This document shows positions 4,634 to 52,600 of a DNA stretch of 64,000 bases, piece by piece. The position numbers and the translations under genes are program-made. How positions within the stretch are numbered: the stretch's first letter is position 1; every line of letters begins with the position of its first letter. The notes beneath the pieces were generated by a model. The model was not told the origin of the DNA and searched no databases. It was given only the letters and a program-made list of their open reading frames with translations. Origin of the DNA: Sclerodactyla briareus (taxonomy: Eukaryota > Echinodermata > Holothuroidea > Dendrochirotida > Sclerodactylidae); the NCBI GenBank assembly GCA_026419785.1, contig JAODTK010004176.1:288649-352648 (forward strand), written 5' to 3'.

Positions 4634-7600
4634 CTGCCAACGTTCATGGGAGTCAAGAAAGAATGAGTCGATGGTGAAGACCAAGCATCAAGATCATATG
4701 AATACTCGATGAGGCCAAAGACCGTCACCCGAGGAACAGCAAGATGATCACACGGTTCGTTCTGATGATGCGGGGGAGCTGGTCAAAGCTTTCGATGACC
4801 AGGACAACAGCTGTCTCAAAAGGAAGAAAGAAGGTGTTTGACAGTATAGTATGAGATGGGGCCCCGAAGAGAGAAGGGTAGGCGGAAGAGGGCGAGCGAA
4901 CCCGGCAAAGACTACCAGGGACGACCGCCAGCGACATCTGAACTTCTGAGACAAGGAGGGGAAGCCAACGTCATCTGCATGAGGTGGACGCTCTTGTTGT
5001 ACCTCAGGATATTGGGGCCATGAGCGTGGAGAGAAGACGATAGCGGCCATCAGGTAGTTGAAGTCCGGTGTGAGCAGGCGGCATGAGAAGAAGCTGCAAA
5101 AACCGGTCGGGGTCAAGACGGTAGCACGAGCGGTAGCACTTCAGGGAGACACGTAGGATGCCTCCAGGAGAGAAAGGGCGTAGGACCGCAGTCGCTGTCA
5201 GCGAGAGGGAGAATGAATGAATATCGTCAGGATGTTCCAGAAGCCCCAGTAGTTCGACCTGTCCTTGCAGTACCTCTGCCATCGATCACTATCAAGACCA
5301 GCACCACCACCACATAGACGCCCTCCAAACTGAGACTGATCTTGTGTATACAGCTCTTGAAATCACGGGCCGCATGATGTCAAACTCGGGAGAGGCTCTG
5401 AACACTCCCGTCGGGAAGAGTTCGAAAGAGCATGCAGCAGACCATAGGAGATTGGGTTGGGTGGAGCAGGTTCCACTCTACGAAAGATGCCCTGGTGTTA
5501 TCGTCGGAGCCATCCAGGACTCCTGGAGGTAGTTCTAATGGTTATGACGTGTAATTATGAGATGTGCAAGATAACTGGTGTGAACCCGCCACCCTCGGAG
5601 GTGAACCTGAGATAATGCAAGTGAGAGCTGTTGGTTCGCTGCCCAGGACGGTCATAGCTTGAATGATACTCCCACGGGGGTGACCCTTGGGTGACCTCGC
5701 TACTTGCTGCTACCCGAGCTGCATGACCTTCCTTGTTATCCAATACTCCTTGCAGGACGATGATTTAACGCTCCTAGGATGGGAGTGTGATGTGCACAGT
5801 ACTGTTGAGATATAAAGGAGGCCCCCCATGAAGGACGATATGTCAAGGTCTGGTTTCAAACATTGGTATGTCATGATAGATATTGGCTTCTGATCATGAC
5901 TGGTACATTCGAAACACACTCTCAGTTGCTCGAGTTGATTCGTGTTTTTTTTATCAGAGGCAGTGCAAAAAGTTTTGATACATTTTCTGGGTCAGCTACA
6001 CAACCCAAGTAAACTTTGCGTAGAGTTCATTTTGTGGGCATGGTACAACAGCCGTCAGAAATTTTATCCTAAGCCTCATCTTTAATAACCATAAACACAT
6101 TCCTAACCAGTGACTTAAGAAATGCTCCACCTTAGCCACCAATGTAGTCTACATCCACTGAGTTTTCTCAATCTGGCAAACTGGATGAGTTGGGTAAATT
6201 TTGACTAATGATGAGCTTGAATGAAATTACCCCCACTTTCTTCGGACATCGGTAGTCTACATCTAGCAAGTTTGTAATCAGACCCACTTTAAAAAACTTG
6301 TGAGACAGCATTTTGAAATCAGAAGGTTCAAAGAAAGTCACAACCAAAATGAGTCTACATCCACTGAGTTTGGCGCAAACGGCAAAAACAACTGGGAAGT
6401 TGGGTAAATTTGACTAATGATGACCTTGATTGAAATTACCCCCACTTTCCTTCGGACATCTGGTAGTCTGACTCTAGCAAGTTTTGTCAGCAGACCAACT
6501 TTAAAAAATTGTGAGAAGCATTGAAATCGAAGGGGCAGCAGTCAAGTGTTGATGCAACTTTCGAACCTATTCCAAGATTTCCGGTCAACGAACAATGTGT
6601 TGATAAGTACTGCGCTTACACCTAACGTCTTGCGCCAGAGGACACGATAACCAAAATATTCCACGGACACTGTTTGTGTAGTGCGGATAATGTACTCTGT
6701 TTGACACAAGCTATGTCGAGGATTGGGAAAGTCTGTGATGGTATCAACATTCTAATGTCAACTGAGGAACTTGCACTGTGGTATAGTAGAATACGGGAGA
6801 TGGTGGGCACCCGAGAAGACGAGAGGGGGGGGGGCGGGGGGAGGAAAGGAAGAGAGAGGGGGGGTGGATGAGGATTCAAAATTCAACCTACCTTGCTTTG
6901 TTCTCAGTTGTCTAACCCTAGCCCCACCGAGTCGGAATGCAAAAGTCCTCCAATATGAAGCCATCAGATCCGCCATAGAATGCTGGTACGAAAACATCCC
7001 TCATCCAAACAGCAAGTCTGTCTGCAAGATGTTCTCACCTTAGAAGAAAGATATTTGTATTAGGTTACAATCCCCGGCGGAATTATTGGCGCAAACACTG
7101 CCAGAACTGTTTCCTTGTTGCTCAGCTGACGAAAAGATGTGGTTTGCTCCATTTACTTCCGGCTGGGGTTCCAGGCAGATTTTGTTGTTTCTTCAATTTG
7201 TACCTGTTCGAAAATTTGAAAGCTATTCAGCCATTCAAGCTCCAATTCATATCTTGGAAATCGTGAGAATCAACCCAAGAGTGCCCATGGCACAGATAGC
7301 TACCCCCCACACCCCACCTAACCAATTTGGTACCGTTTGAGTGTATGAAATGTGCAACGTTTAAAAAGATACCTTAACTGCTCTTCGACATCAATATGTA
7401 TCATCAGTCAAGAACAGGCTGAATGTATAGGTCCAGTACCAACTCTCATGATTCTCCAAACTATTCTGTAGAAAAGAGAGGATGCACAAGTGTTCTAATA
7501 AAATGGAGTAGAAGTCGCTGACCATTTGAACAAAATGGCTGAAAGTGGCCCCTAGATGGCCTCTGACCTCAAATTCCTGAACACCCTGTATGTACCATTG

Positions 7601-10600
7601 GACAATGATAATATTGACTATCATGGTCATCATCATGGTCATCCAGTTCAATCTCTGGGAGAAGAAGCATCTTGTTGTTTACCACAAAATCACCTTTTTT
7701 GCCAAGATGACCCCTAGATGACCTTTGACCTCAAATTCCTGAACACCCTGTATGTACCATTGGACAATGATAATATTGACTATCATGGTCATCATCATGG
7801 TCATCCAATTCAATCTCTGGGAGAAGAAGCATCTTGTTGTTTTTGACTCCCCAAATGACCTCTTTTGGCTAAAATGACCCCTAGATGACCTTTGACCTCA
7901 AATTCCTGAACACCCTGTATGTACCATTGGACAATGATAATATTGACTATCATGGTCATCATCATGGTCATCCAGTTCAATCTCTGGGAGAAGAAGCATC
8001 TTGTTGTTTACCACAAAATCACCTTTTTTGCCAAGATGACCCCTAGATGACCTTTGACCTCACATTCTGAACACCACATAAGTACCACTGGTCAATGATC
8101 ATACTGACCAATTTTTATGATCGTCTGATCTGTCCCATAGGAGAAGAAGCCGCTTGACAGTTGAACAAAATGGCCAAAATTGACCCCTAGATGACCTTTG
8201 ACCTCAATTCCTGAACACCCTGTATGTACCATTGGAAAATGATAATATTGACTATCATGGTCATCATCATGGTCATCCAGTTCAATCTCTGGGAGAAGAA
8301 GCATCTTGTTTGTTTTACCACAAAATCACCTTTTTTGCCAAGATGACCCCTAGATGACCTTTGACCTCAATTCCTGAACACCCTGTATGTACCATTGGAC
8401 AATGATAATATTGACTATCATGGTCATCATCATGGTCATCCAATTCAATCTCTGGGAGAAGAAGCATTTTGTTTGTGTTTACCACAATTCACCTTTTTCG
8501 CCAAGATGACCCCTAGATGACCTTTGACCTCAATTCCTGAACATTGGTCACCGAGAATACTGACCAAGTTTCATGAAAATCCGATTTGAACTGTAGGAGG
8601 AGAAGTATTTGCAGTTTTTCGCAAAAATGGCCAAAATTGACCCCTAGATGACCTTTGACCTCGACTTCCTGAACAACCCGAATGCCCCCTTCACTCAGTG
8701 ATTAGACAGACAGACAGACAGACAGACAGATAGACAGATTGACAGATAGTAGATAGATAGATAATAGTATAGATAGTAGATAGAAGATAGATAGAGACGT
8801 GCAGGATTACAATAGCTCACCCAGCACATGCTGGGGTGCTGGCTGAAGAAATTTAGGCCAAGAAATAGGTCCCCCTCCCTAATCCATAATTTTTTCATCA
8901 AATTCACAAGCATTCCTAGTGAACAATCTGTTTTGTGATGTTTTGCATTGCTGCAAAAATTTGAAACATTCATTCCATTCCCCAAATATCTTAAGATGTA
9001 AAGACTCTTCACCTCTTTTTCTTCCTACCCAGATTTCACTTATTTGAAGGGAATTTCATGTAATTTGGAGAGAAAACCTGTTTTTTGGTGGAATCCATCC
9101 TAGAGAAAATTTGAGGTGCCTGTTCAATAATTCCAAACTAGAAACCAATAAAAATCTGCCGGACAGGCAGACGCATGCACACACACAAACATGCACACTT
9201 ACGGCCTGGCCCCTGTTACGAGTGCGCCTCATTGCTGGACCACCCATGGGGGACCCCTCAATGGAAGCTTCCCACTCATCATAGTTGATGCCATAGCTGT
9301 TTATAGTTGGGGAATAGCATTGTAATGGCAACTAGCAATTAGTGAATATGGGCAAAAATGGCAAATTGGTTACAATATCTAATCCAGCCCACTGGGACCA
9401 ATGAGATTAATAATAACATTACATCAGACTGAAGTAAACATTTTGAAGCACCAGTTATTCAAAACAGATGACAATGGTGCCTCAGATGTGGAGTGTAATG
9501 TTTTCTTGGTAATAATGTTATACCATTGGTAGCGGGTAATATAAAGTAAAAATTATGTTCAAAAGCACAATGAGTTCTATGAACTAAAATATCAGGTTGA
9601 TTGGTCCTCATGCTTATCTATTAGAAGATACCTAAACCTGCCAGTGCAACAAGCATATTGGGGAAACAACTCATATCCACAAGTATTCTGTTCAGGCGTG
9701 GAATCCTTACATCCCAGCAAATGTCCAAAGGAGGGCTACTCGGAATAACTAGCTGTCTGAGGGATTGACCATATGATTGAGGCATTTCCGTCTGACCTCG
9801 ATGGTTCTCAGGTTGAGAATACCTGATTCTCTTGTTACTGGCCAACTTTCAGCAAGATCCGCGGTCAACTTCGACACGTGCACACACATGCACTGACATA
9901 CATTCACACGCACATACACAAAATAGTGATATCTAGGTCTCTTATGAAAGAGTCAGGCAAGACAAAAGGGCGCGTGCGGGTTCACAATGTAGTTTCCAAC
10001 AGGCAGCCAAAATGAATGAGCACGTCAGTAAGACAGCCGGGGCTTAGTGGCAGCAGACACATACCTCATGAGCATTTCCTACAAAGCTGTTTGCCAGGGC
10101 CCGCTTCATCAGGTGGTGTTGGGGTCCCCGACCGAGGTAGGGGCCATCTGCGAGGACTATGAAGATGAGACACGGGGCCTAGATCGTCAGCCTTCAGGAC
10201 GGAGTACATCTGGGCCTTCTTCATTCGCTTCTTCGCGGGCCTTCTGGACCTTCCTAGTTGATGGTGGCTGGTATTAGTGGGTCCCCTCAGCTGATAACGG
10301 GGGGATCGAATTTTCCCCCTGCTGGATATCTCTGCTGTACAATGAAAAACAACAGAATAAACGACCACTGAACAATAGACAAGGTCGTCTTTGTTCGACA
10401 ACAGCAGTGACAACTGTCCATACAAAGCCTATGTCGATGCACCCCTGGCTGGAATTCCTCTCTGAGGGGCACTCCAGGAATGAAACTAGTAACAATTCCA
10501 ACCCAATATGAAAGTGGGACTCCCTCAGAAGCAGCTCTAGAACAGGAACAATACTGTCAGTAGTTTATGATACCTAGCGTTTGCTGCTCCACGAAGCTGA

Positions 10601-13600: not shown

Positions 13601-16600
13601 GACCTCGCTCCTCGTCGACATCGAGTCGAGATTGATTCATTGTCGGTCCAGTAAGACCGACTCCGTAGGAATGTCCCTCCCGCTCATGCCCTGTGAGGGC
13701 CGCCTTCTCTCGTCTCCTGCCACTTCCCGACAACCCAACCTCTCTATTGTCCGAGGAATGTGGCCTTTCTCTCAAATCGCCATCATGGATGAAGCGGTGT
13801 ATTGGTCTGGAAGGAACTTCTCGCTGCTGGGAGATGAAAGGCTGGTAGCGTATGCAGATCGTGGACGTAGTCCTGAGGTTCCTGGGCCGTCCCCGACGTC
13901 CTTGAACTCTCACAGATGGGGTATTTTTGATGGTGACAGGCACGATACTGCTTTCAAATTCCTGTAATCAGACGCCACTAAAGCTATAACTGATGAGGGT
14001 TATTGTGTTGTGTTGTGTTGTCAGTGACATTACATATGCTGGAGTACAGGGATAGAGAACAAAACAATGGATAGCTTTTTGCAAATCAAGCTTTCTCACT
14101 GATGACTGAAGGCTATAGCATATTATGTGATATTAAGGGAAGGAGTAATTTCCACAGAAACCATTTATAGCTAGTAACAATAATGAAGGCTGCATTGTGT
14201 TTGTGCTTTTGTCATTGACATTGACGATACTGCTGTCTTTTGGGAGTACAGGAATAGAGATAACTATGAGATGGCTTTTCTTAAATCAAGCTTTCTCAAT
14301 GATGACTGAAGGCTGTGGTGTATTATGTGTTATTATTAAATATTATTCTCAGCGAGGCGGGGCTTTTAACTGGTACTATCATAGTCCAAGCCGTGAGATT
14401 GATTCTCAAATTCCTGCATGCTACTGACAAAGCTGAACAGTTTTTTGGATACATTGTTCCAGTAAAATAGACTTCTATATAGAGGGCACGTGGCTCGTAA
14501 TTAAACCTAGAGCGGCACTGGTAGCATCCAAATGTTGAAAAATCGGCGACTTCAATCTGAACTGTAGAGTTCAAGCCATCAGCAGTGAGGTGGGTGTGCT
14601 TTCCGCCTCTCCTCTAGCCTGTTGACACAGGCGTTTGACTTTGTTCAACCTGTCTCACAGCCCCAATCCCTCATAGTGCAGGGTGATCTTTAACTTTAAC
14701 CATCGGTAATTTTGCCTACCAACAACACCTTGCGTGCTTCGTTCTGCTCGCTGTCGAGCTGAAGCATGGGACGTACAGTGGGCAGTGCGACGTCAACGTT
14801 GAGTGTGCGCAGCCGAAGATTTCTCCTCTTTCACACTAATTACTGGGAAACGGCCATGGTCTGCTGTAAAATTACTTTCCATTGGTCCAACAAGTTTTTT
14901 GGAATAACGTTTAGATGTATATTTTTTTTTTTATTTGCCCATCTGGAAGGACTCAATATTTTTTCTGAACGTCCTGCGGCGATCCAAACAAGCAGCATAA
15001 CGCCTTGCGCATAGCTGAAATAGTGGCTTCGGTAGATTTTAAAGGGCTTCAAATGCAGTCATTTTTCAAATAATTTCTCATTTTCGGTGTTGTAAAAGGT
15101 TATTGAAAGTCTTCTGTAATATTCATGACCTGAATATGGTGCGATTTTTCTTCCACGGAATCTATTCCAGGTTTGCTACGTCAATCCATATCAACGCCCG
15201 TGTGCTACTTCTGACTGACATTACGTCACCTTGAATCGTAATGAGCAAAATCCCCAATTTTTTGGGATTTGTCAAACGTAGTCCTGCAGACGATATAATG
15301 TTGGTGATATTCGACCGTGGGTTTTAAATAACTTAAAGAGCGATAGCCCTATTAAGGACGGTTTTCCATATCGTTCTGCTTTCGAAGGCTATCTCAGGAC
15401 CTACCTATGATGACACGTAGCCATGAGAGGTTTGAGCGATCCAATCGATATATACTGTCACGGTTAGAATACTCTCTTCTGGCACCCCGAGAAGGATGAT
15501 GATGCTCGCCGAGCATGGCCGTGAAGGTGAGCAGAGGAAGCACGCCGCCCCTCTGCAGTCGGGTGAACCCTTACTGCGAGGGGGTGTGGACCACCACGAC
15601 ACCAGAGATGGTACTCGTGATGTCCCGCTGCAATCCCAGCAGGAAGAGGTGTGGAACTGGACGAGGTCCGTTGCGTGGCGGCGGGGAAGTCTATTTATCG
15701 ATGCAGAACTCCCCGAGATTGGGCTGAGCCAGGACGACAGAGGTAGTAGTACCACCAGCTGTTTGCCTGGAGGTCGTGGACGATCACTCTACTATGTACC
15801 CTGTGAAAAAGAGACGGAAGATCTGTAGGTGATTTAGGGTTCATCAGATCAGGGTCAGGGATGTCCTAGAAAATTTGAGTGCGATGTTAACCCTTGCGTC
15901 AGAAGGGCAGGTGACATCTGTAAAAGCATTGGTTGTGCGTATTAGTTATAGAGAAAATAGCGGGTGAGTGCCTGTAAAAGCCTGAGTGCGGGGCCCCACA
16001 ACCCAATGCGACCCAGGTGGGCACATTCCTCCACATTACCCAAGGTCATGTAACAGGAAGCTACATAAATGGGCACAGGTGGAAAAGAAAACAGATCATA
16101 AACCCTTCATCTCAACTGTGTAGGCTCTATTAAGGTTGTGACGATCCAGGTCATGTGAGTAGGCAAGCAGGTGCTGTCATGCTGGAGTCTCACCCTATGA
16201 GTTCATTCCCTCCCCCCTCCCAGGCTTCGTGGAGTATTGGAACCTAGAGGGCCTGTGTACCTGTAACATGTGACGAACAGATGTGTCGCAACAAGTGTCC
16301 GAGAGCCTTGTGTCTGCCAAATGTGACAGTGTTGTACAGAGCAAAACATCAGGAAAGAGAGGAAACATGTTATGCAACCTGTGGCGCAACGGGTCCAATA
16401 ATTGAAAAATCGCTTAATATGGCAACATGATGTTCCTAATGTTGTCCTGACTCTTTTGACCAATCAAAGGGTCATACTTGAATCAGTCGAGATGTCTTGC
16501 ATTCTAGTTCATAGGCCTTTGACAAAATGGCAGCCTCCATGGAATAGATGTGTCAATCCAGTAGCCTATGATCAGTGGTATACTTGGCCTCATTAATTAT

Positions 16601-19600: not shown

Positions 19601-22600
19601 TATCAAAAACCACACCCCAATTTTGGAGGTTTTCTAGCAGTTGCCTCTGTTAAGTTGTTTTCAATTGCTTTGAAAGAAATTTGACGAATTGATGATCACA
19701 TCACCAGGGAGGAAGGAGGGGGGGCGGCGGGGGGGGAGGGGAGGAGGGAAGGCGGTATAAGGACGCTCGTTGCTCAATCAGTAAAAGGTGCAATTTGAAC
19801 TCTCATGACAACATGTTGCCATGTGTTGCAACTGTGTCGCAACTTGTTATTGTATATACCGGGCCCCAACAAGATTGATCGGCAACATGTTGCGACACAA
19901 GTGTTGCAACATGTTGACAGTTGATAAAAAGGCCTTAAGAGAGTCTCACTCGTAAGATGATCACCCAGGTAATTCTTATCCCTGTGAGCTCCCCAGCGCA
20001 ATTCCCGGGTGGTGAAACCAAACACCATCTCTTACAAGTCTGAGTTACTGCCAGTGTTGTTCATGTCACCACCCTGTGTCTCCTCCTCACAGGCCGCTAT
20101 GGGTACCCCCCCCCGCCCCCTCCCAGGACAACGGGGGGTGTGGAACTAAACAACATCTATACCAGTCTGGGTTACTGTCAGTGGTTTGGCCCACCCCTGT
20201 GGTTCCCACTCCCCTTACCTGGGTGGCCCCTTCCCACCACCTTCCAGGGTGGGAACCTAACACGTCTCTTACCAGTTCTGGTTATTGCCAGTGTTTGTCA
20301 TTTGTCACACTCCCTTGATTCTCCCCCACTGCAAGGCTTCCTGGGTGCCACCTCCCAGGCCTCCCTGGGTGGTGAACACACCACAGCTCTACCAGTATGG
20401 GTACTGACAGGTTGTCTTGTCCCAACCCCTCTATTTTCCCCTTCATTGGCTTCCTGTTCCCCTCCCAGGCTCCTGGGTAGTGATAGTGAATCTGATTTAC
20501 CCCTCCCCGGGATTCCCTGACCCCATCCCAGGCAATCCTTGGTGGTGAAACCTAACGCCATCTCTTACAAGTCTGGGTTAATGCCAGTGTTGTCTGTCAC
20601 ACCACTGTTGGATTCTTCCCCCTCCCAGGCTCCCGGGGGCCCCCCTCCAGGCTCCTGAGTGGTGTGAACCGAAACACCACTCTTTACCATCTGGGTTACT
20701 GCCAGTGTTTGTCATGCAAGTCTCACCCTGTAAGCCCCCACTGTAAGAGTATTCACACTTTTGTAAGTCCCTCACCCTCTGTAAAGTCCATCAACCTTTG
20801 TCTTTTTTTAAGTCACTCACCCTTGTAAAGCCCGCCCACCCCAAGGCCATCCCAGAGTGGTGAGCATATGTCAAACGTCTTTTACAAGTCTGGGTTACTG
20901 ACAGTGTTGTACACTGTCCCACCCCTGTGTTTTCCCTGTCCCAGAGGCTACCCTTGGCGGGTCCCCCCTCCTAGGCTCCCCTTGGTGTCCCCTCCCAGGC
21001 CTCCCTGGGGCCCCCCCAGGGCCCCCTGGGTGGTTGAACACCTAACACCATCTCTACCGTTGTGTTACTGCAGTGTTGTCATGACAACTATCCCCCCTGT
21101 AGAATCCTCCCGGCCTCCATGGGGGCCCCCCTCTCAGGCAAGGGTGGCCTGGGACCATCTCTTACCAAACTGGGTCACTGCCAGTGGTGCATGCAACTCT
21201 CACCCCTGTAAGCCCCCACTGTAAGAGTATCACCCCTGTCAGTCCTCACCCTGGAAGCACCACCAGTGAGTCCCCCCCCGTTAAACCCCCACCCCCAGGC
21301 ATGAGCCTATCACTGTCTCCTACCAGTCTGGGTTTGCCATGTTGTCATGGGCCAGAGTCTCATCCCCTGTGAGTGCCCCCAGGTGCTCCTGTGTTGGTGA
21401 TTCATGAAGGAGTTCTCGATAGCTATCTGTAGGGACTGGTCTGTGAGGGAGCGGCCGCAGGACATGGGGCTCATGGGAAACCCCACGCGAACCCTGTGGG
21501 AGGCAGGGGAGAATTACGGTTGAGGTTGTATAGCTTAGGATGTGGGTGTCATTGAACCGGCAGGGGGCAGGGGTAGGAATAGGGTTGAGTGACATGGAGG
21601 TTCAGTTGCCTCTGTGATATACAGTTTTTCGACTGGAGCAGCTGGGATTGTGGGGACGTAATTTGAAGGAACAACTGCAGGATAAATATGAAGTGGCTGA
21701 TATATTAGCTGGGAGGAAAAAACTAAATAGTGTCCGTCCAAACCCGACGTTCATACGATTCCGGTTACGGAGTTTACAGAGAGTCCTCGGAAGTTGTGCA
21801 TGTGTATTGCACAAGATCGAAAAGCATCCATCATGCAATGATAAATTGATGTCATACTTTCCTGTTTTTAATTGAAGTTCACTACAGCAATTTCACTTCG
21901 GAAAAGCAGTCAGTCATGGGAGAGAGAGAGGATGCTGTAGATGTGGTTGGTAAGGGTGATGAATAATTTGGGAGAGAAAGACAACAGAACTTCTGCTAAA
22001 ATGTTGACTTATACAAAGAATTGAAACAATGAAATACATAACATTCTTTTGCGGGTCGTCAAAGGTGATGACGTTCATGGGAATGCGCAATGGGATTCTC
22101 CCCAAGTTCTCTGCATAATGGACCAAACTTTGGAGTTCCAAAATAACTCCCACTGGGAACATCGTATGAAAATGAGGGTAGACCTAAAAATAGGTTTTCC
22201 ATTCTCCACGATATACCCTGTTGTAGTCAAACCTGCCATTGTCCTTGAGAGCTCTGAACCTTGTTAGGGGAATAGTCTAGTGGTTGATAGAAAAATGATG
22301 TGTTCTCACATCGGGGGAAGGACCGGGGTGGATCGAGTGAATAGGACGGAGTGAATTGGGTCCCTGCTGTGGTGGGCTGATACTATACCTCATATACCTT
22401 GAATAGCGAGTAAACTCAAGTCACTAGAGGTGTGTGTACTTCTGATTTGGTGTTCACAACTGTATTGCGGAATATTGCGAAGTGATGGTTCTAGGGTGGA
22501 TGAGAACAGAATTTGGGAACGATGTCACCAAAACTTTGGGTCGGAGAAGAGAGAGGGAAGGAAGTGAATGGAAGTTTTCCTGCATATGTCCTTTTTATTG

Positions 22601-28600: not shown

Positions 28601-31600
28601 CCTAATACTATAGTTAAACACATGGTTTTTGTATCACGTCAATACATAGAATACTACAGTATGGATAGCGTAAACATCCATTGGCTGAATGGAAACTCTG
28701 AACAAATGGGCAAATAGAGCATTCATATGATAGCCTGAGACACACAGCGAGATGTGTGTTGATTTGATTGATGCTACGGTTCAGGACCAGCCAATTTGAC
28801 TCATCAAGGACCCCTAACCGAATTTTTGATCGTGGATGAGCACCGGCGACAATCGACTTCTTTTGGGACTAGTGCTCCGGCTGTGATATCGGGCAGGAGG
28901 GTCCCCATCCGACGGACGCTCAGTGAATGACAGGACCTGACCACTCTCAGAACCTGGAAGAGCGGAGATGTTCGACGGGACTGCTCCACAGCCGACCGAC
29001 AAGAACCTCTTGCAAGTTGCCCCTGCAACAACCCCCCCGAATTACCAAGCCATGCTCAACAGACAGGACCAGGACACATAAGACCAGGAACAGGCCGTCG
29101 AAATGCAAGTATAGCACTCTGAAAAAAGCCTGGTGTGTCGGCTGGAAATCGAATCCGGGACCTGTTGCATGCAACGCGACACTGATACAGCGTTACTGTT
29201 CTTCCGCTCGTTGTGTGAGTCAAACACACAATCTTTGAACCCGCCTATCATTTCTGCCAACTGCGTTTCTTTCTCGAGCCAATATTTGAGCAGATGGGGA
29301 GATCATGTGACCATGTTCACAGTTTACAACTGATGACAGGACAGAAACGGGATCATAATGATTCATCGTGTTATCAGATGATGTGCAATCAACAATTAAA
29401 AAGAAAAATTTCCCTGGTTGTTACCAATTAACCAGTGTTGTCAGAGTCTAACTCAGTCACGTTTCTCCAGGAATTCGCAAACTGAACTGGTTTGTAAATC
29501 ATGGACTAGGGTTGAGAGAGAGAGAACAACCTCTGAAAACCGCGAAACCAAAACGGATAGTCGTTTGTTAGATTAAAGAACAATGAAAGCGATAGTTGAA
29601 AGGTAACTTCCTTCAGAAACGATTGATGATTGGTGTGGAAAATTTGATAGTGAAATTTTCAACCGAATCTTGACCCAAGAGCTCAACATGTAGACCTTCA
29701 GACTGGCAAAAAGAGGAAGGCAATGGGGTGCAAACAAGGAACATTGTGTTATGCCAGATGTTCTAGGCATATGGGTGGGGTGCATAGTCAATATTGGGTG
29801 AGTTGAATATGTGAAAAAAGAGATTGCGAGTCCATTGGAATTTCTAAACAAACAATGAAGGGATCGAGTCAATGATTTGTCTACAGTCAAAAGAAATCTC
29901 CAATAACTTGGGTCCTAAATTTCGCGACTTGTTACAGCTATGCTTCCAATACAGATCGCAGACTGGCCACTATGATGGTGAGTGACTGACTATAACTAGT
30001 GCTCACAGGTGTCCTGGGCGATAGGCATGAAGTGTTGGGCATGAAGGAGGGATAAGCAGGAAGGATTTGGGCTGGAAACAAAGAATCTGGTGAGAGGGGT
30101 GGGAGGGGAGGGGGGGGGGGGTGAAGAGGTGCAGGTTTCAAAGTTTCTTTACAGGGGGATGGGGAGATATGTGGTGTTGAAGAAAGCAAAGATAGTGACA
30201 GAGCAATACAGAAGCTTAGTGTTGTTGATGACCCCGGACAGGGGAAGAAACGCTTGAAGCCAAGAGTGCCGAACAAGACAAACCAGAAAGCCAAGAGGCT
30301 TAGTGATTCCTTGGAACAACGGTCCGGTCTGTGGTGTCCAAGTTTGATTTCCCTAACACCAGTCTTATGTTTAAACTGAGATCAATAGCAATTTAAATGT
30401 ACTAGGCAGTTTCATGATCAGTCAGGCCGTGGGACATAGCCTGGATTACAAGGTAAAAGTAGGTCTGCCAGGAATACCAGAATTTTACAAGTTCCCGCTT
30501 TCCCCTAAATTGACCCTAACAAAAATTGATAGCATCATGTGCTCATCATGAGAGAAAGCACACCCACTAAGCTCTTGAACTGATCCAGCCAGGCAGTTGG
30601 ACTTTGCCGTGATTACAAGTTAAAAGTGACCAAAATACCAGAATTTCACAAGTTTCCAATTTTGCCCAAAATGGACCCTATACCCATACAACAATAAAGA
30701 GCATTCATGTACTCACAATGGGGAGCACACCCACTACTTGAACTTGATAACACCAGGCATGTTGGACATAGCACCATGATTACAACGGTAAAAAAGTGCC
30801 CAAAATACCAGAATTCACAAGTTTCCACTTTTTGCCCAAAAGTGACCCCCTAAACAAACAACAATATAAAAGCATTCATGTTCTCATCATGGGAAGCACA
30901 CCCACTACGTTTGAACTTGAAACCCACCAGGCATGTTGGACTTTGCCTGATTACAAGGTAAAAGTGCCCAAAATACCAGAATTTCACAAGTTTCCACTTT
31001 TTGCCCAAAATTGACCCCCTACCCAAACAACAATAAATAGCATTCATGTACTCACCATGGGAAGCACACCCACTACGTTTGAACTTGAAACCCACCAGGC
31101 ATGTTGGACATAGCCTGATTACAAGGTAAAAGTGCCCAAAATACCAGAATTCACAAGTTTCCACTTTTTGGGCCGGCAAAATTGACCCTAGACGCCATAC
31201 AACAGCTACTTAGGCATTCATGTACTCACCATGGGAAGCACACCCACTACGTTTGAACTTGAACGCCACAAGGCATGTCGGACATAGCCTGATTACAAGG
31301 TAAAAGTGCCCAAAATACCAGAATTTCACAAGTTTCCACTTCTTGCCCAATTGTGTGTAATATGAGCAGACATATGGGGTTCCAGGAACGTAAACAAGGT
31401 CCCGAGATTATACCTGACCATCATGGGCATTCTCAAATTTATTAATGCCGGTATCTCAGTCAAAATTCATCAATTCCAGAGTCATTTTAAAATGGCATTA
31501 TCAAACGATTTTCAGTGGTCGGAATCATCACTGTTCTGAGATGAAATTTGACCTCTCCGGAGGAGCGAACTATTCTTTCTTCTCACACCACTGTTGCCCG

Positions 31601-34600: not shown

Positions 34601-37600
34601 TGTCAGCCGATTTCCTTCGAATTATCGCCTGAATAATAAACATACTGCAGTATTTTTGTACCAGTTATCACTAAACTAGGGTCATCACTGCCATGACATC
34701 TGTGCTGTCTGCCTCCATATATAATAACATTATCATCATGAGCATTTCATTATCGTATCACCCTCTTGCATCAGGACCTGGGACTGCCATATCTCGCAAT
34801 GAGGGCCCGCAGGGACAAATAAATTGCGGTATGCTATGTGCCCACAATTACCAGGGCTGTGTCAAAATTGTCATGTCTGGCCATGGTAATGGACTACTAA
34901 GTGCTGGAGGAGGGGAAGGAAGAAGGAAGGAAGGAAGGAAGGAAGGAGGAAGCACCGCACTACCATCCCCATTCTCTCCATTCCAACATCCATTATCCGA
35001 CTTTAATCCTCCTCGACCCCTCAATCACCACATCAATATAATACATATACGTCGTTATACTGCATCTTTATATCACGATATTTCCGTAATTGCCATCGCC
35101 TTGATGATGACAAGTTATTCACAAAATTCGAAGCTCATAAAATTCATCAAAGATTAGCAACAGTTAAGAATCCACTATTATCAATATTTGCATCATGTGG
35201 GGTTAGATGGTTTATGGAGGCACAGACCAAGCTGTGAGATTTACCATGATCGGTAGCAAAAAACACAGCATTGTGACTGATGAAAACAATTTGAAAGTCA
35301 ATTAGCAAAGTATACAAATAACTCACATTTTCTGCAGTGGAATTGTCCAGATCATTTTGAGAAATTTCGGTGCCAGTAATTCTGAGTACTCCAAGATTGC
35401 TTGAGATGCCCCCATGAATGTGTCCACCCCTGAAACAAGCTGCCTGTAATGTTGAAAAATGGATAATTTATTTGAGTCAGGAGTTTCCTCACGTTGCAAA
35501 TTTTACCATTTTTCCAAAAAATTATCCCCCCCCCCCTTCCATGCACTACTAACTGTTACGTGTACAATTGTCTCCGAGAAAATCACTGGTCTCTATTATA
35601 AGCCACAAAAGCCCCCCTCCCTTCCATGCACTAGCTAATTTACGTGCACCCATTCGCTTCCAAATCACATGGTCGACTTTTATAACACACATCCCCCCCT
35701 TCCATGCCCTTAGCTAACTTACGTGTACCATTGCTTGCCCGATAAAATCACATGGTTGCTATTATAAGCAGCAAAATCCCCCCCCCCCCCTCTCCTTCAT
35801 GCACTAGATAACTTTACATGTACACATTGCTTCGTTACCGAGAAAAATACATGGTCGAATATATAGCAAAAGAATTCCCCCCACCCTTCACATGAACTAG
35901 CTAACTTCAAGTGTTAACATTGCTTCGAGGGGGGGAGAAAATCACATGGCCGACTATTTTAAGCAACAAACCCCACCCCCCCCTTCATGAAGCTAGTAAC
36001 TTTTCCGTACACATTGATTCTGAGAAAATCACATGGTTGACTATATAGCAACCAAAAAACCCCCCCACCCTCCTTCCATGCCTAGTAACTTTAGTGTGAC
36101 ACATTGCTTCGAGGAAAATCTACATGCGACGATATAACCAACAAATCCCCCCACCCCTTCCATGCACCTATCTAATTTACGTGCACACAGTGCTTCCGCC
36201 GAAGAACAATCACAGCGGTCCGATACTATTAGAAGCAACGGGAACCCCCCCCCCTTCCCCTTCCATGCCACTAGCAACTTGACGTGCACTACTTGCTCCC
36301 GAGAAAATCACTGGCGACTAGTATAAAGCAACAATCCCCCCCCCCCCCTCCCTTCCATGCACTAGTCAACTTTACGTGTACACATTGCTTTCGAGAACTA
36401 TACACATAAGGCTGCATTATTAGGTGCATCAATTTGATAAGAGTTCCCGCCCTGTTATTTCGATGCCCACCTTCTTAAAATTGACATGCAGACACAGCTC
36501 TCTATCCATAGTGGAAAAGGCCTGACAGTGACTCGTTATTGGCATGCACTTTTCAGGCATTTTTCCTTAGTGTGCATGTTTTCTTTTCATTAAACTACAA
36601 GGAATAATCAATCTACTGCCCATGAAGCTAAACTTGTTGCATCTCATGGACTATGTATAGATGGTTAGAACATTCCAATGGGCAGGGCAATGTGCATGGA
36701 TGTGGCCAGGTTGACCCCTTGAAAATGCCAACCCCCCTATTCCACACCTATCAGCAATGTTCAGCTGTTACACACATTTGAGTGGATCGGGCCCAATAGG
36801 GCCCCTGCCTCACCCCCAACCTCATTGAAATGAGTGGTCCTGAGACTGGGCCTCTCCTAGAGTGAAAAATGTGGTGCAAACACCTTTGATGTGACGACTC
36901 ACAAACTGCAAGGCACAGGCTGGAAGTGGGGAGAATTCCCAACCGAAGACTAAGAATGGGGGGGGGAGCAGGCAGTACCAAGATTCCAGCTCAACTGGTA
37001 AATGTCTCAGATTCTTGGTAGAGATTTGGCCTTGCATAAACCAAAGTGAACAGAACTGAAGTCTATAACAAATTGCACTGAAATTTAAGGAAAATTTCCA
37101 AAAACAATGAAGGTATGCTGGGCAACATTTGTCTGACATTATTTTTTCCCACTGTCCTCTTGTGAACAGAATATTTAAAGGACCCTCAGACTTCTGGCAC
37201 ATTGCAGGGGGACAGTTTCTCTCCTTTCCAAACATAATGGAATGGTGCTTCACCAGGGTTGGTTGATTATATCAGGTGATTAAAATCGTTGATTTAATCA
37301 GGTGATTTTAATTGAACAATCAGATTAAAATCAGATTCCACTTGATTTGAATCGATTTATAATCATGATTTTTTTGAAAAAAAAAAAAAAACACCAACAC
37401 TGTGCTTATATCACTTGTTTCATTCTTCACAAACCACTTCAGACTTTTTCTGCAGACACAGGATCAATCTTTTTTGTTTAGGAGGGAACCTATAAGACCT
37501 CTTTGCTCTCAATAACCTTCCAATGGTAATGACCCCCCCCAGAGATCCACGGACCCCAGGATGATTATCAGTAGTTTAGAACAATACTTTAAAGGACAAG

Positions 37601-46600: not shown

Positions 46601-49600
46601 CTTTAACTTTCCCCTCATAATTAGTGGATAGAACATCATAAAAAGGTTGCCAGTTTGCCAAAATCTCCAAATTATATGACATTTGAGGAGGAACAGCATA
46701 TCTTCCAAAACCGAAAACATCTATAACCTTGGAACAAGTGATATATTTGAATGCTTTTTATTCTCTTTAACATTATAAACACCAAAAAGAGTAAGAATGA
46801 GGATGGACTTCGCCTTTGAGCGCATTCTCAGGTAACACCCTGGTGGGCATTTGAGCCAAGCTTGAATTCACTCCTAGTGAACTCTTCTTCAGTCAGTTCT
46901 TAGATAGATACATCTTACCTAATAGGCAATTAAAGAAGCTCCACACGTCAATAGCCCACGGCAGGATTTGTGTGAATTCAAGAATTAAATCCCAGCCCAG
47001 CTTATCTTCCTAATCTAACCCTGCAGTATAGTACCTGAATGAATCTCTGTGGATTAGGTGAATCGATTCATAAAAGTCTGTGGAAGTGAGAACTCACATT
47101 TTCTTAGATAGCCCCAGAATGCTTTGAAACTGAAAAAGCAAGTTTGATGAGTTTGGATTTCCAAACTACTCTCATTTTTGTGTTATCTACAATAGTCCAA
47201 TGACATCACAAGGGAACACCCGATGAATGTTTTGCCGTGGGGACACAGAAAGAAATTGCGAAAGTTCAAGTTCAAGTCAATGAATACTTGCATCTATAAA
47301 TTCCCCAAAAATATGTGCATCCACAATCGAATAAGGTTCACCATGCTTGTGTAGCAGAGATTTGAAGAAGTAAATTTTGTATTGAGCAGGTATTGCCCCC
47401 TGCACCCCAATGTCATCATGAGGGCATTGCACCATAGAAGGTTTGTCTCATTTTCACTGTCTTCTCAACTGAAAGGTCAATTCGGAGGACGGATATTCTT
47501 CTCATGCTAATCAGAACCAGGTCTAAACCCCATTTCAATACGATGTTCCTATCTGGAGTTATTGGCCTCCAAAGTTTGGGCCATTAGCAGATGGATTTTG
47601 GGAGTATCCAACATCATTTGCGCATAACGCATGACGTCACACATGGACAACACAGAAAATTATGTTATGTATTTGATTGTTTCATTTTGTTGAATAAGTC
47701 AACATTTAGCAGAAAGTCTGTAGTCCTTGTCTCTCACCAAAGTAACCATCAACACCCTCCCCAGGCCACTACAGCACCCTCCCCATCGACTAAATGCTCT
47801 TCGAAATGAAAATAATGTGTGAATTTCAATAGAAAACAAAGATTGTGCAAGTATGACATCATTTATTATTGCATGATGGATGCATTTCGATCTTGCGCAA
47901 TACACATGCTCACAATACACAAACTTCAAATGACTATAACTCCGTAAAGGAAAGTCCTATGAACTTTCGGTTTGGACTGACACATTCAGTTTCATCAAGC
48001 TAATTAAATCAAGCCCCTGTATAAATCACCCTGCAGTTGCCCTTCAAAGTCCTGTTTCGCACTTCCACTGACCTTTCAAAATTTACAGAATACCTCACCT
48101 TACTCAAGTACATCAGTGACATTGCCAGGAAGAATCCTGATCGTCTGTTCAGTTGCCACAGGGCCCCTCCCAGTCTTGCTGATCTCCAATCTGAAGGTGT
48201 AGCTGCTGTTGGCCTCCAGGGACCGCTCGGGGAACCGGAGAGAGGATGACACAGAGATGCGGGGGATGTGTCCTCTGAGATGAGGAGCCCAGAGCTGAAA
48301 ACAACCGCACGCTGCCAAATGAAAAGGCTCAGTGATTCCTTGAATCAGTAATGATAACACATGACCAGAGACATGAAGTACGGGAAATTGTACCAGCACT
48401 TTATGGTAAACATACCTATTTCTCAAGGCACAAATGACCCTTCAACAATTGTTCGGACTCATTTCTGGACCATTGGTGGCCTTAGATGACCTCTGACCTG
48501 ACCACAGAATAATAGGATTTGTTTACTCCTCATGGAGAACACAGACAAAAAAATCACAAGTATGAGCTTCGTCTATCAGATGGGGTGGAATTGTTGTGTT
48601 TTCAAGCAAAAATTTGCCATAATATTGATTATCTACAATTTTTCCATTTTTTGAGAGAAAAAGAGGACCCCGATCTACACCAAAAACAATAGGGATCATG
48701 TACACCCCATAAGAAAGCTACACACAAAAATTTCAACATGGTCAAACCAAGTGTTCTGGGCATCTGAAGGTACAGCTATCAGGCCATCTTTGACTGAACA
48801 ACAAAAATTGTAGGAGACGCAAGATTCTCGTTATTTCATATATGGGCCCTAGGGCCAAAACTGGCCCTGAGCCCCAAATCCCCGAACACCCCAAGGGCCC
48901 TCTTGACCATTTAGTAATTTTGAAGAGGAAAATTAATTGGAGCTTGTGGGAGGGGATGCATTTCAAGTGCCATGTGTGGAAATGGGCATAATGGAAGTGG
49001 GCCCTAGGACCAAAATTTCCCGAACACCCTGAAGGTACGGCTGTTAGAACAGTAAACATGTCCCATGGGTAATAAAACAGTGTGTCCAGGTGTGGTCGAC
49101 AGTCATCACAGAATGACTGTTTGGGGGCCAAAAGGCAAGTGTGACGACAGACAGTCCTATAAAATAGATAGATAGCCTGAATTGTGTCATGATGTAATGA
49201 TCCAATTTAGTCACCTCTCAAAATGAGGTTTGTGGCCCTTTGTGGAAGCAAAATTTCATGTATTCTGATGAAATTTAGAACTCCTGGATAGCCATCTTGA
49301 CCAAAGTAATCAGGGAATCGTCAGGAGGGTTTATTGCTTTGTGTGGCTGCCGGCTGGGAGAGGTGATGATCTCCTCAAATGAGGAACTTCCATGCAATTT
49401 CCCGACTCCTCCCTGACTGGGAAATAGAAAGTATATAACTATTTATAATGGAATTAAAATTAGCATATAGTCTTGAGAACCTCCAGCAAAATTAGTCAAT
49501 GCAATCAAAACAAGAATGTAACAAAGATCCATAATTGCTTAGTCTCATCCATTTTTGTATTCACTCTCGTCTCTCAGCAACAAGTGAGAGTGAGAGAAAA

Positions 49601-52600
49601 AGGGGGAAAAAAACTTACTCATACACTGGTTATCTTCGAGGGCATCATGTAATGTCTCGTTGACACCAGGGAAGGTCTCGTTTTCCCTCCTACAATACCA
49701 ACGGAAGGTCAGATCGGTGTCAAGGCTGTGGCTGGTTGGCAGGTCGGGATCGTAAGAAGTCGAACCATCAAGCAACACCTCTGAGGTCCAACCTAGAGAT
49801 AGTATGAACAGTAATCAGCATAGTGAATCATCAGAAACAATGAAATCTAGCAGGGATCAAACCAAAACATGGACCTGAAAACATGGGAGCAGAAGGACTG
49901 CATTTATTGTTAGCTGTAAATCCTTACACAGGTACAAAGAATAAGCAACAAATGAGATAGGGGTAATCAAAATGCAGGTGAGGACATGCTAATCCCCTAC
50001 CACTTATTCTCTCACGTTGAAAGCCCAGCAGAAATTACACAAGGTTTTGAAGTCTTTGGTAACCTATTCAGGAATTGAACCTAATCCCCTTGGTGGAAAG
50101 TGGAAGCAAGGTTCTTTCTCTGGACAGATGGGTGATGAGTGCGCGTAGAAGTGAGAAGTCCTGGTAATATGTAAATATATCAGGACAATTAAATTACAGT
50201 GTTGCATGCCCAGCCACATGACAATTTGGAGTTCACATCTTTTTTTCATGATTCAAGTCAAGAAAGGCTTGTCAAGAAATCCTAACCCTATTGAGCATTG
50301 GCGCTAACTCCCCTTCGACTAGCACCTGGAAGATATCAAGGCAGGGGTGCAATCAATCCTAACCTGCTCCCCGGGCTGCCATTTTACGTCCCCTCCGACA
50401 AGTACAGCCACCTGGTGGGGAGGGGGGGGGGGAGTCGGGTGATTGCTGCAATTCGAATCCAGTGTCAGGAGACTAATCACCATTACATCCCTCAGAGGAA
50501 GCTTTTGCTCGTAGACCTTATAATGCTCTATGAATAAAATTATTGAAAGTGTACAAGTAGTAACGTACTATTGATCCTCCATGAGCCCCCGTGATTCGTG
50601 GTATCAGTGAGTTAGGGGCCACTTTGATGTGACTCTGGTCGTATTCTACCATGCCCACAGAGCTGTCCGCATTCATGATAGTCGTGACAGCAATCTCCAC
50701 GATGTATTCACCGTAGGCGAGGGTGAACGGCGGTATATAGCACTCCACTAGGTCCGTCCTGACATCCTCCCCAAACAGGACCTCATTGGCGATGCTGGGT
50801 ATGGGAAAAACTCATCAATCCTGTAAAGCCTCCAACGATAGATTGTCACATCAGAACCCTGACAGTCCAAGTCGATATCAGCATGCAGGGTGATCGCACG
50901 ATTCCGGTAATACCTCAGAGCAGATGAGAAATCTGGGCTGCCACTCCGGATTTTGAGTAGTGGTATATCACAGGGCTTCAGATTTACTTTCACCTCAGAG
51001 AAGCAGAGCGTGAGGAGACCATATTCCAACCATAGGTATAGCCAAATAGCTGCTCCAGAGGTAGTGGTGTTTTATATCTTAGATACGCAGTGTGTATCAA
51101 CGGCAGTTAACAGGGCCTGGTTTCAAGATCTCCGACTGACGCATTCTGGAGAAGTACGGGAAAACTCATAGGAATAGCCGTCGCCATAGCTTGAGACGAA
51201 AGGTGAGTTTGAGGCCAAGGGTCTCTGCAAAAAGACTATGAAGATTATGTCCCTCCATCAATAACATGGGTCCATTATCACGAGGAGCAAGTTGTGATGT
51301 TTCCACCACAGTGACCTGTGTGGTCCCCGCACCTTCAGAGAAGTCATTGCCGACATTCGCGGCCACGGTAAAAGTGCCGAAGGCTGTGAATGTGTAGGAC
51401 CAATCGCAGGTGGAGGTTGGTGGTGTTTGAGGTTATGGTGGTTATCTCCCAGGTCCCCACTGACTGTCCCCTCCCCAGAAGCAAGTAGTGAAGTAGGACT
51501 GGGTACTATACTGGTAGCACCTCAGATCAGTGGGAAGGACGGGTGACCCTGATGGATACAAATTAATAGTTATATTTGGTGCATCCAATAACCCAGCCAA
51601 CAACCCACAGACTCTGGTCAGAGGTCGAGGGTCATTATCTGCGTTGTTAGTAGGGACCTTAAGTCCCAGGTGAGAGGCAATGTTAGCAATACACAAATTG
51701 GATCTGAGAGGTATGCCCTCTTTGATTTTTTATGAGAGGGATTTTGGACTCAAGGAGGGATATACAATATCAACATTAGTCGATTGAGCGATGTTTGAGG
51801 AAAATTACATCTAAGAGTAAATTCTCTCCTACAAATATTTGTTGTTGTGGGAATTAAAAAATTGATCATACCATCCCTCAGTGCTAACACTGGGGAGAGG
51901 AGAAATGCTTATGCGATGGCTTTTTTTTCAAGGCTGGAGGGAGGCTTGCCGGCCACCAAAACAGCTCCAAGCTAGGCCCCACACAGCCCTACTAGTTTCA
52001 ACAATATGCATGGGCTCGACGCAAGTCGATTGGAGGTGATACTACGAGGCCTCGTACAGTGTGTACTATACAGGAAGCGGTAAGGATGTCCTTTCCCTGC
52101 CGGTAGTGCGGACATTCAGACAATGGGATGGCCGTGTTTTTTGGCTGTTCACGGAGGAAAGCATCGCGAAACGTATCTGGACCTGTTTTTTTTTTTTAAG
52201 AAACTTGAAGTCATGTTTGCGGGCTTTTCGGCAGAGAATTGCAAATATTTTTTAAACAGACTACAACTTGCGCATCTGAGCTGAGCTGGAGCATTAGGGG
52301 AAATTTTCCGGGTTGCGAATTCCACGCAAATATTTCATTTTTTGCCTCTGTCACAGAGAGTACGGGTACGTTTTTTCGCATTCTGGGTGCAGATTCGTAC
52401 TATGAAACTCCACCCCCTGTGTTTTTCGAGCACTGTGCGGGGCACATGCTGACACACCTTCCAAATTACCTAATCTCGATGTCCCCCTGACCTCCAATCC
52501 CTGTGCCTGAGCCCCAGTGAGGAGGCAACAGACCTGTATTATTTTTCAATCTGCAGTATGATTGCATGCATCAATCATGGAAAGATGATGATAATAATGC

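Follow-up and report, generated by a model that had tools for sequence, protein, structure and literature searches.

A probable mirage-type minisatellite across the exon-intron boundary of a PLAT-like exon in Sclerodactyla briareus

Published accounts place mirage minisatellites in the globin and Adh3 genes of lancelets (PMC3087553) and set lancelet mirages beside PGBD5 and troponin C (PMC3902484). Titles and the opening lines of abstracts in the open literature name no polycystin mirage and no mirage outside lancelets. Here we describe an intronic array in the holothuroid S. briareus, within a stretch of 64,000 nucleotides of contig JAODTK010004176.1 (positions 288,649 to 352,648, assembly GCA_026419785.1), referred to below as the window. 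We consider it probable that this array is a mirage-type minisatellite that grew across an exon-intron boundary, and that its copies are tolerated and serve, if as anything, as unused decoy donors.

The array and its relation to the exon end

On the minus strand, between 19.96 and 21.5 kb, an exon is followed by nine intronic units, each of which copies approximately the last 57 nt of that exon, the donor and the first part of the intron (Table 1), so that tandem repeats run across the exon-intron boundary. Array and exon lie where the initial annotation had placed them; its count of about ten intronic units was slightly high, as we found nine, together with a probable partial unit beyond the last. 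The unit donors run from 21165 to 20035 at an uneven spacing of 108-198 bp. The consensus of the units can be read, as had been proposed, as HDNTGSNPDW followed by GTAAGA, and we take the peptide to be a PLAT-like motif. The exon itself differs, as it encodes HDNMANPDW followed by GTAGGA in the assembly; GTA stands at the donor in all nine intronic units, but the exact GTAAGA in only four. Tandem Repeats Finder recovered small pieces of the array only, and Rfam gave no match in the window. Further long-period tandem arrays are present in the window at 7549-8543, 30432-31350 and 35783-36390 (163, 168 and 94 bp).

Table 1. Positions in the window of the exons, splice sites, intronic units and putative duplication seed
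Feature	Position	Donor	Strand	Remark
Source exon, PLAT-like end, copy joined to the real acceptor	21324..21493		-	Small indels break the frame
Real acceptor with pyrimidine tract	21494..21516		-	0.8 pyrimidine in 20 nt
Real donor, GTAGGA	21318..21323		-	
Next exon, VHSRVIVHDLQANSWWYYYLC after CACAG acceptor	15730..15800		-	Read from sequence
CCTGGGGG in exon, possible duplication seed	21376..21383		-	
CCTGGGGG in intron	21292..21299		-	84 nt further on
U1	21142..21193	21165	-	
U2	21025..21083	21057	-	
U3	20852..20910	20885	-	
U4	20654..20716	20687	-	
U5	20537..20594	20568	-	
U6	20364..20419	20392	-	
U7	20244..20301	20272	-	
U8	20136..20188	20162	-	Weakest match to exon
U9	20004..20065	20035	-	
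Probable partial unit, exon-like part only	19965..19996		-	Score reached in 32 of 5000 shuffles

The similarity between units and exon exceeds a few chance bases. The consensus of the nine intronic units alone matches the exon at 22 bases with no mismatch and two gaps, and the resulting score of 35 lies above every one of 5000 dinucleotide shuffles, which peaked at 33, and above the best of 1460 other bins of the window (30). The intron side alone is weak, with 41 of 5000 shuffles reaching its score and other window bins equalling it. Across the exon-intron boundary, eight of the nine units beat all 1000 shuffles, and U8 was equalled by one in 1000. In eight units the likeness to the exon sets in 55-59 nt upstream of the donor, and in U9 at 42 nt. 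In forced alignments the identity is only 38-51% between exon and units and 41-72% among units, values which suggest that the array is either old or quickly diverged; the low exon-unit identity and the weak intron side both count against the mirage reading.

A paralogous exon elsewhere in the genome (L008, E 8.5e-6 to PLAT) ends at the same intron position with the motif SLGDVTSIRLWHDNTGTSPEW followed by GTAGGT, and has no such array. This indicates that the exon was the source of the units, in agreement with the proposed growth from the exon-intron boundary, which is also consistent with the PLAT-type coding motif held by the units. The converse candidate, an exon end born from a satellite, is ruled out by the same paralogue. 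A satellite common to other loci, which would have spoken against such growth, was not found either: a search of the 319-Mb genome with the units, in which the best candidates were scored, gave five matches, all of them in the window's array.

We infer the recombination steps behind the array as follows. A tandem duplication, perhaps between two copies of CCTGGGGG lying 84 nt apart in exon and intron, may have doubled a segment made up of the final ~57 nt of the exon, the donor and the beginning of the intron; unequal exchange or slippage would then have expanded the array to nine or more units, partly in multi-unit blocks. The exon reads CCTGGGGG where the unit similarity begins. As a seed this pair is suggestive only, because the count of CCTGGGGG in the window equals chance (three matches against 2.57); all three are at the array locus, which is G-rich anyway. 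In a tree of the units, U1/U4 and U5/U9 have 95% and 74% support and the other nodes 28-47%, and a long off-diagonal self-match joins 800 to 739 nt of the array at 65% identity. These are signs of repeat turnover within the array, and the two pairings together with the block match point to duplication in multi-unit blocks.

No Pfam match was obtained for fragments of the window's two exons (the source exon and the next), and a genome-wide PLAT (PF01477) profile search gave no match inside the window, both of which we attribute to small indels. The motif and the paralogue speak for a PLAT-type exon, and by our reading the next exon would encode the rest of PLAT. Upstream on the same strand, a REJ domain matches at 48100-48441 with an E value of 1.2e-8, over the cut-off, and a second REJ match at 50518-50811 (E 0.0072) falls under it. 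Judging from the upstream REJ match and from how we read the exon that follows at 15800, the gene appears to be polycystin-1-like, and the REJ region and the PLAT-like exons probably belong to one gene. At 15380-15800 and 21324-21493 the reading frame is interrupted by several one- or two-base shifts, of the kind seen in unpolished long-read assemblies; small indels are numerous in this assembly.

Boundary duplications at other exon loci

Exon matches from PLAT, PKD channel, kinase and ion channel family searches of the genome provided 43 loci, reduced to 40 by removing L010 and L048, which repeat the exons of L008 and L012, together with L011, a weak COX1 match; several of the 40 exons are on a common contig and probably in a common gene. 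We scored a boundary duplication where a duplication on the same strand extended 20 nt or more into the exon match. Such duplications occur in four of the 40 other exon loci, against a mean of 5.9 expected from random placement in the same loci (an earlier count on a smaller set gave four of 37 against 5.4), and 21 of the 40 contain some tandem duplication. Exons are therefore not targeted by tandem duplication, there being no enrichment over random placement. Applied to the window's own locus as a control, the same test picked it up through just one match of 44 nt, so the survey counts too few of the diverged arrays. Genome searches for three lancelet markers, GFP, huntingtin and the sarcoplasmic calcium-binding protein, gave no match, which is weak evidence for a host outside the lancelets. 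The kinase family search yielded only 39 matches in 319 Mb, which suggests that much is missed, either by the search or in the assembly.

All four boundary duplications, like the window's array, are downstream of the exon (5/5). At L019, a presumably MAST-like kinase exon (1510-2309), 4.4 copies of 171 bp repeat part of the exon and its ATGGTAAG donor; the first three copies there read TAG where the fourth has TAT. The kinase exon of L032 (1685-2161) is accompanied by 5.7 copies of 77 bp across the donor, and that of L017 (760-1605) by a 63-bp array behind the donor as well as distant, diverged exon-like copies. At L007 the end of a PLAT exon recurs once more, without a clearly preserved donor, which leaves three clean boundary cases.

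Splicing and the fate of the copied donors

Many but not all of the copied splice signals are intact. Computed from base frequencies, the donor scores extend from 1.66 to 9.0: five of the nine unit donors score at least 5.4 and four about 3 or less, and two, at 7.38 and 9.0, exceed the real donor (6.44), so one cannot take it for granted that the decoys are silent. Runs of GGG follow all ten donors, two to five each, compared with a mean of 0.53 behind 32 GTAAG sites elsewhere on the same strand. AG sites within the units have a pyrimidine fraction of at most 0.5 before them, compared with 0.8 for the real acceptor, and no good acceptor was found inside the units.

The intron has phase 2 in the PLAT frame, and reading beyond the first donor gives TGG TAG. 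Use of any later donor would thus bring an immediate stop, which excludes longer proteins made through later donors, if the bases there are right, and the suggestion in the initial annotation that the array could allow variable PLAT lengths is not supported. Among the options raised there, tolerated decoys appear to fit best. Splicing would take the copy that is linked to the sole good acceptor, and the G-runs behind each copy could help to mask the remaining donors. In human introns, donor-like sites near G-triplets are rarely used and appear masked, according to the available text of one study (PMC8964760). The array may persist by virtue of its intronic position, the exon being left whole and tandem duplications being common in the genome.

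Alternatively, the array could regulate splicing, either through decoy donors that hold U1 snRNP and so delay or tune removal of the intron, or through the immediate stop as a switch that turns the protein off. The five better unit donors, including the two above the real one, and the G-rich context would suit such a role. We regard it as unlikely, since boundary duplications are not enriched at exons, the units have diverged, with low scores at the four weakest donors, and lancelet mirages are reported, in the available portions of the two papers, not to disturb splicing (PMC3087553, PMC3902484). Equally improbable is an assembly artefact, or a location in a dead gene; in either case the array would be uninformative on a working exon. 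Several frame shifts in both exons of the window point in that direction, as do stops or shifts in L008 and L009 and, in the exon copy of L019, a stop that is absent from one intronic copy. Against this, the units differ from one another far beyond read error, the same kind of array is found at separate loci, and the PLAT exon of L007 is open. Finally, although exon-like sequence and a donor occur together in every unit, with AG triplets 30-62 nt before the donors, the possibility that the units act as extra mini-exons, or as alternative ends, and so make the PLAT domain variable is very small, because their AG sites have no pyrimidine tracts and an in-frame stop follows the first donor directly. 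We favour a tolerated minisatellite grown across the boundary.

Comparison with described systems

The array is a natural experiment on how the spliceosome settles on one donor when presented with nine near-copies. The small survey points to arrays of this sort being the product of random tandem duplication filtered by selection, a reading that bears on the proposal that mirages feed intron gain (PMC3087553). We would suggest only tentatively that mirages are not confined to lancelets, and that a non-lancelet animal rich in tandem duplications has boundary duplications at about one in ten exon loci, predominantly or exclusively at the donor end, and with them a constant reserve of surplus splice sites that could let introns move or originate; we hold this the less firmly because L007 keeps no clear donor.

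Human G-run masking resembles the present case in that donor-like intronic sites stand beside G-triplets (PMC8964760). The human sites, as far as the available text describes them, are unrelated GTs, whereas those in the window are copies of the real donor. Intron gain by tandem genomic duplication, as presented in the accessible portions of PMC4974935 and PMC3443670, shares with this locus the copying of splice signals. The intron position in the window is common to the paralogue L008, and the locus shows no new intron.

The closest likeness is to the lancelet mirages of Adh3, the globins BflGb6 and BflGb9, troponin C and PGBD5, among which BflGb9 is the donor-side case in the available text (PMC3087553, PMC3902484). 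Compared with these, the gene and the locus are new, and the window's units are more diverged and uneven: they recur at 108-198 bp, against 10-72 for lancelet Adh3 and 150-160 for the globins in the same portions of those papers.
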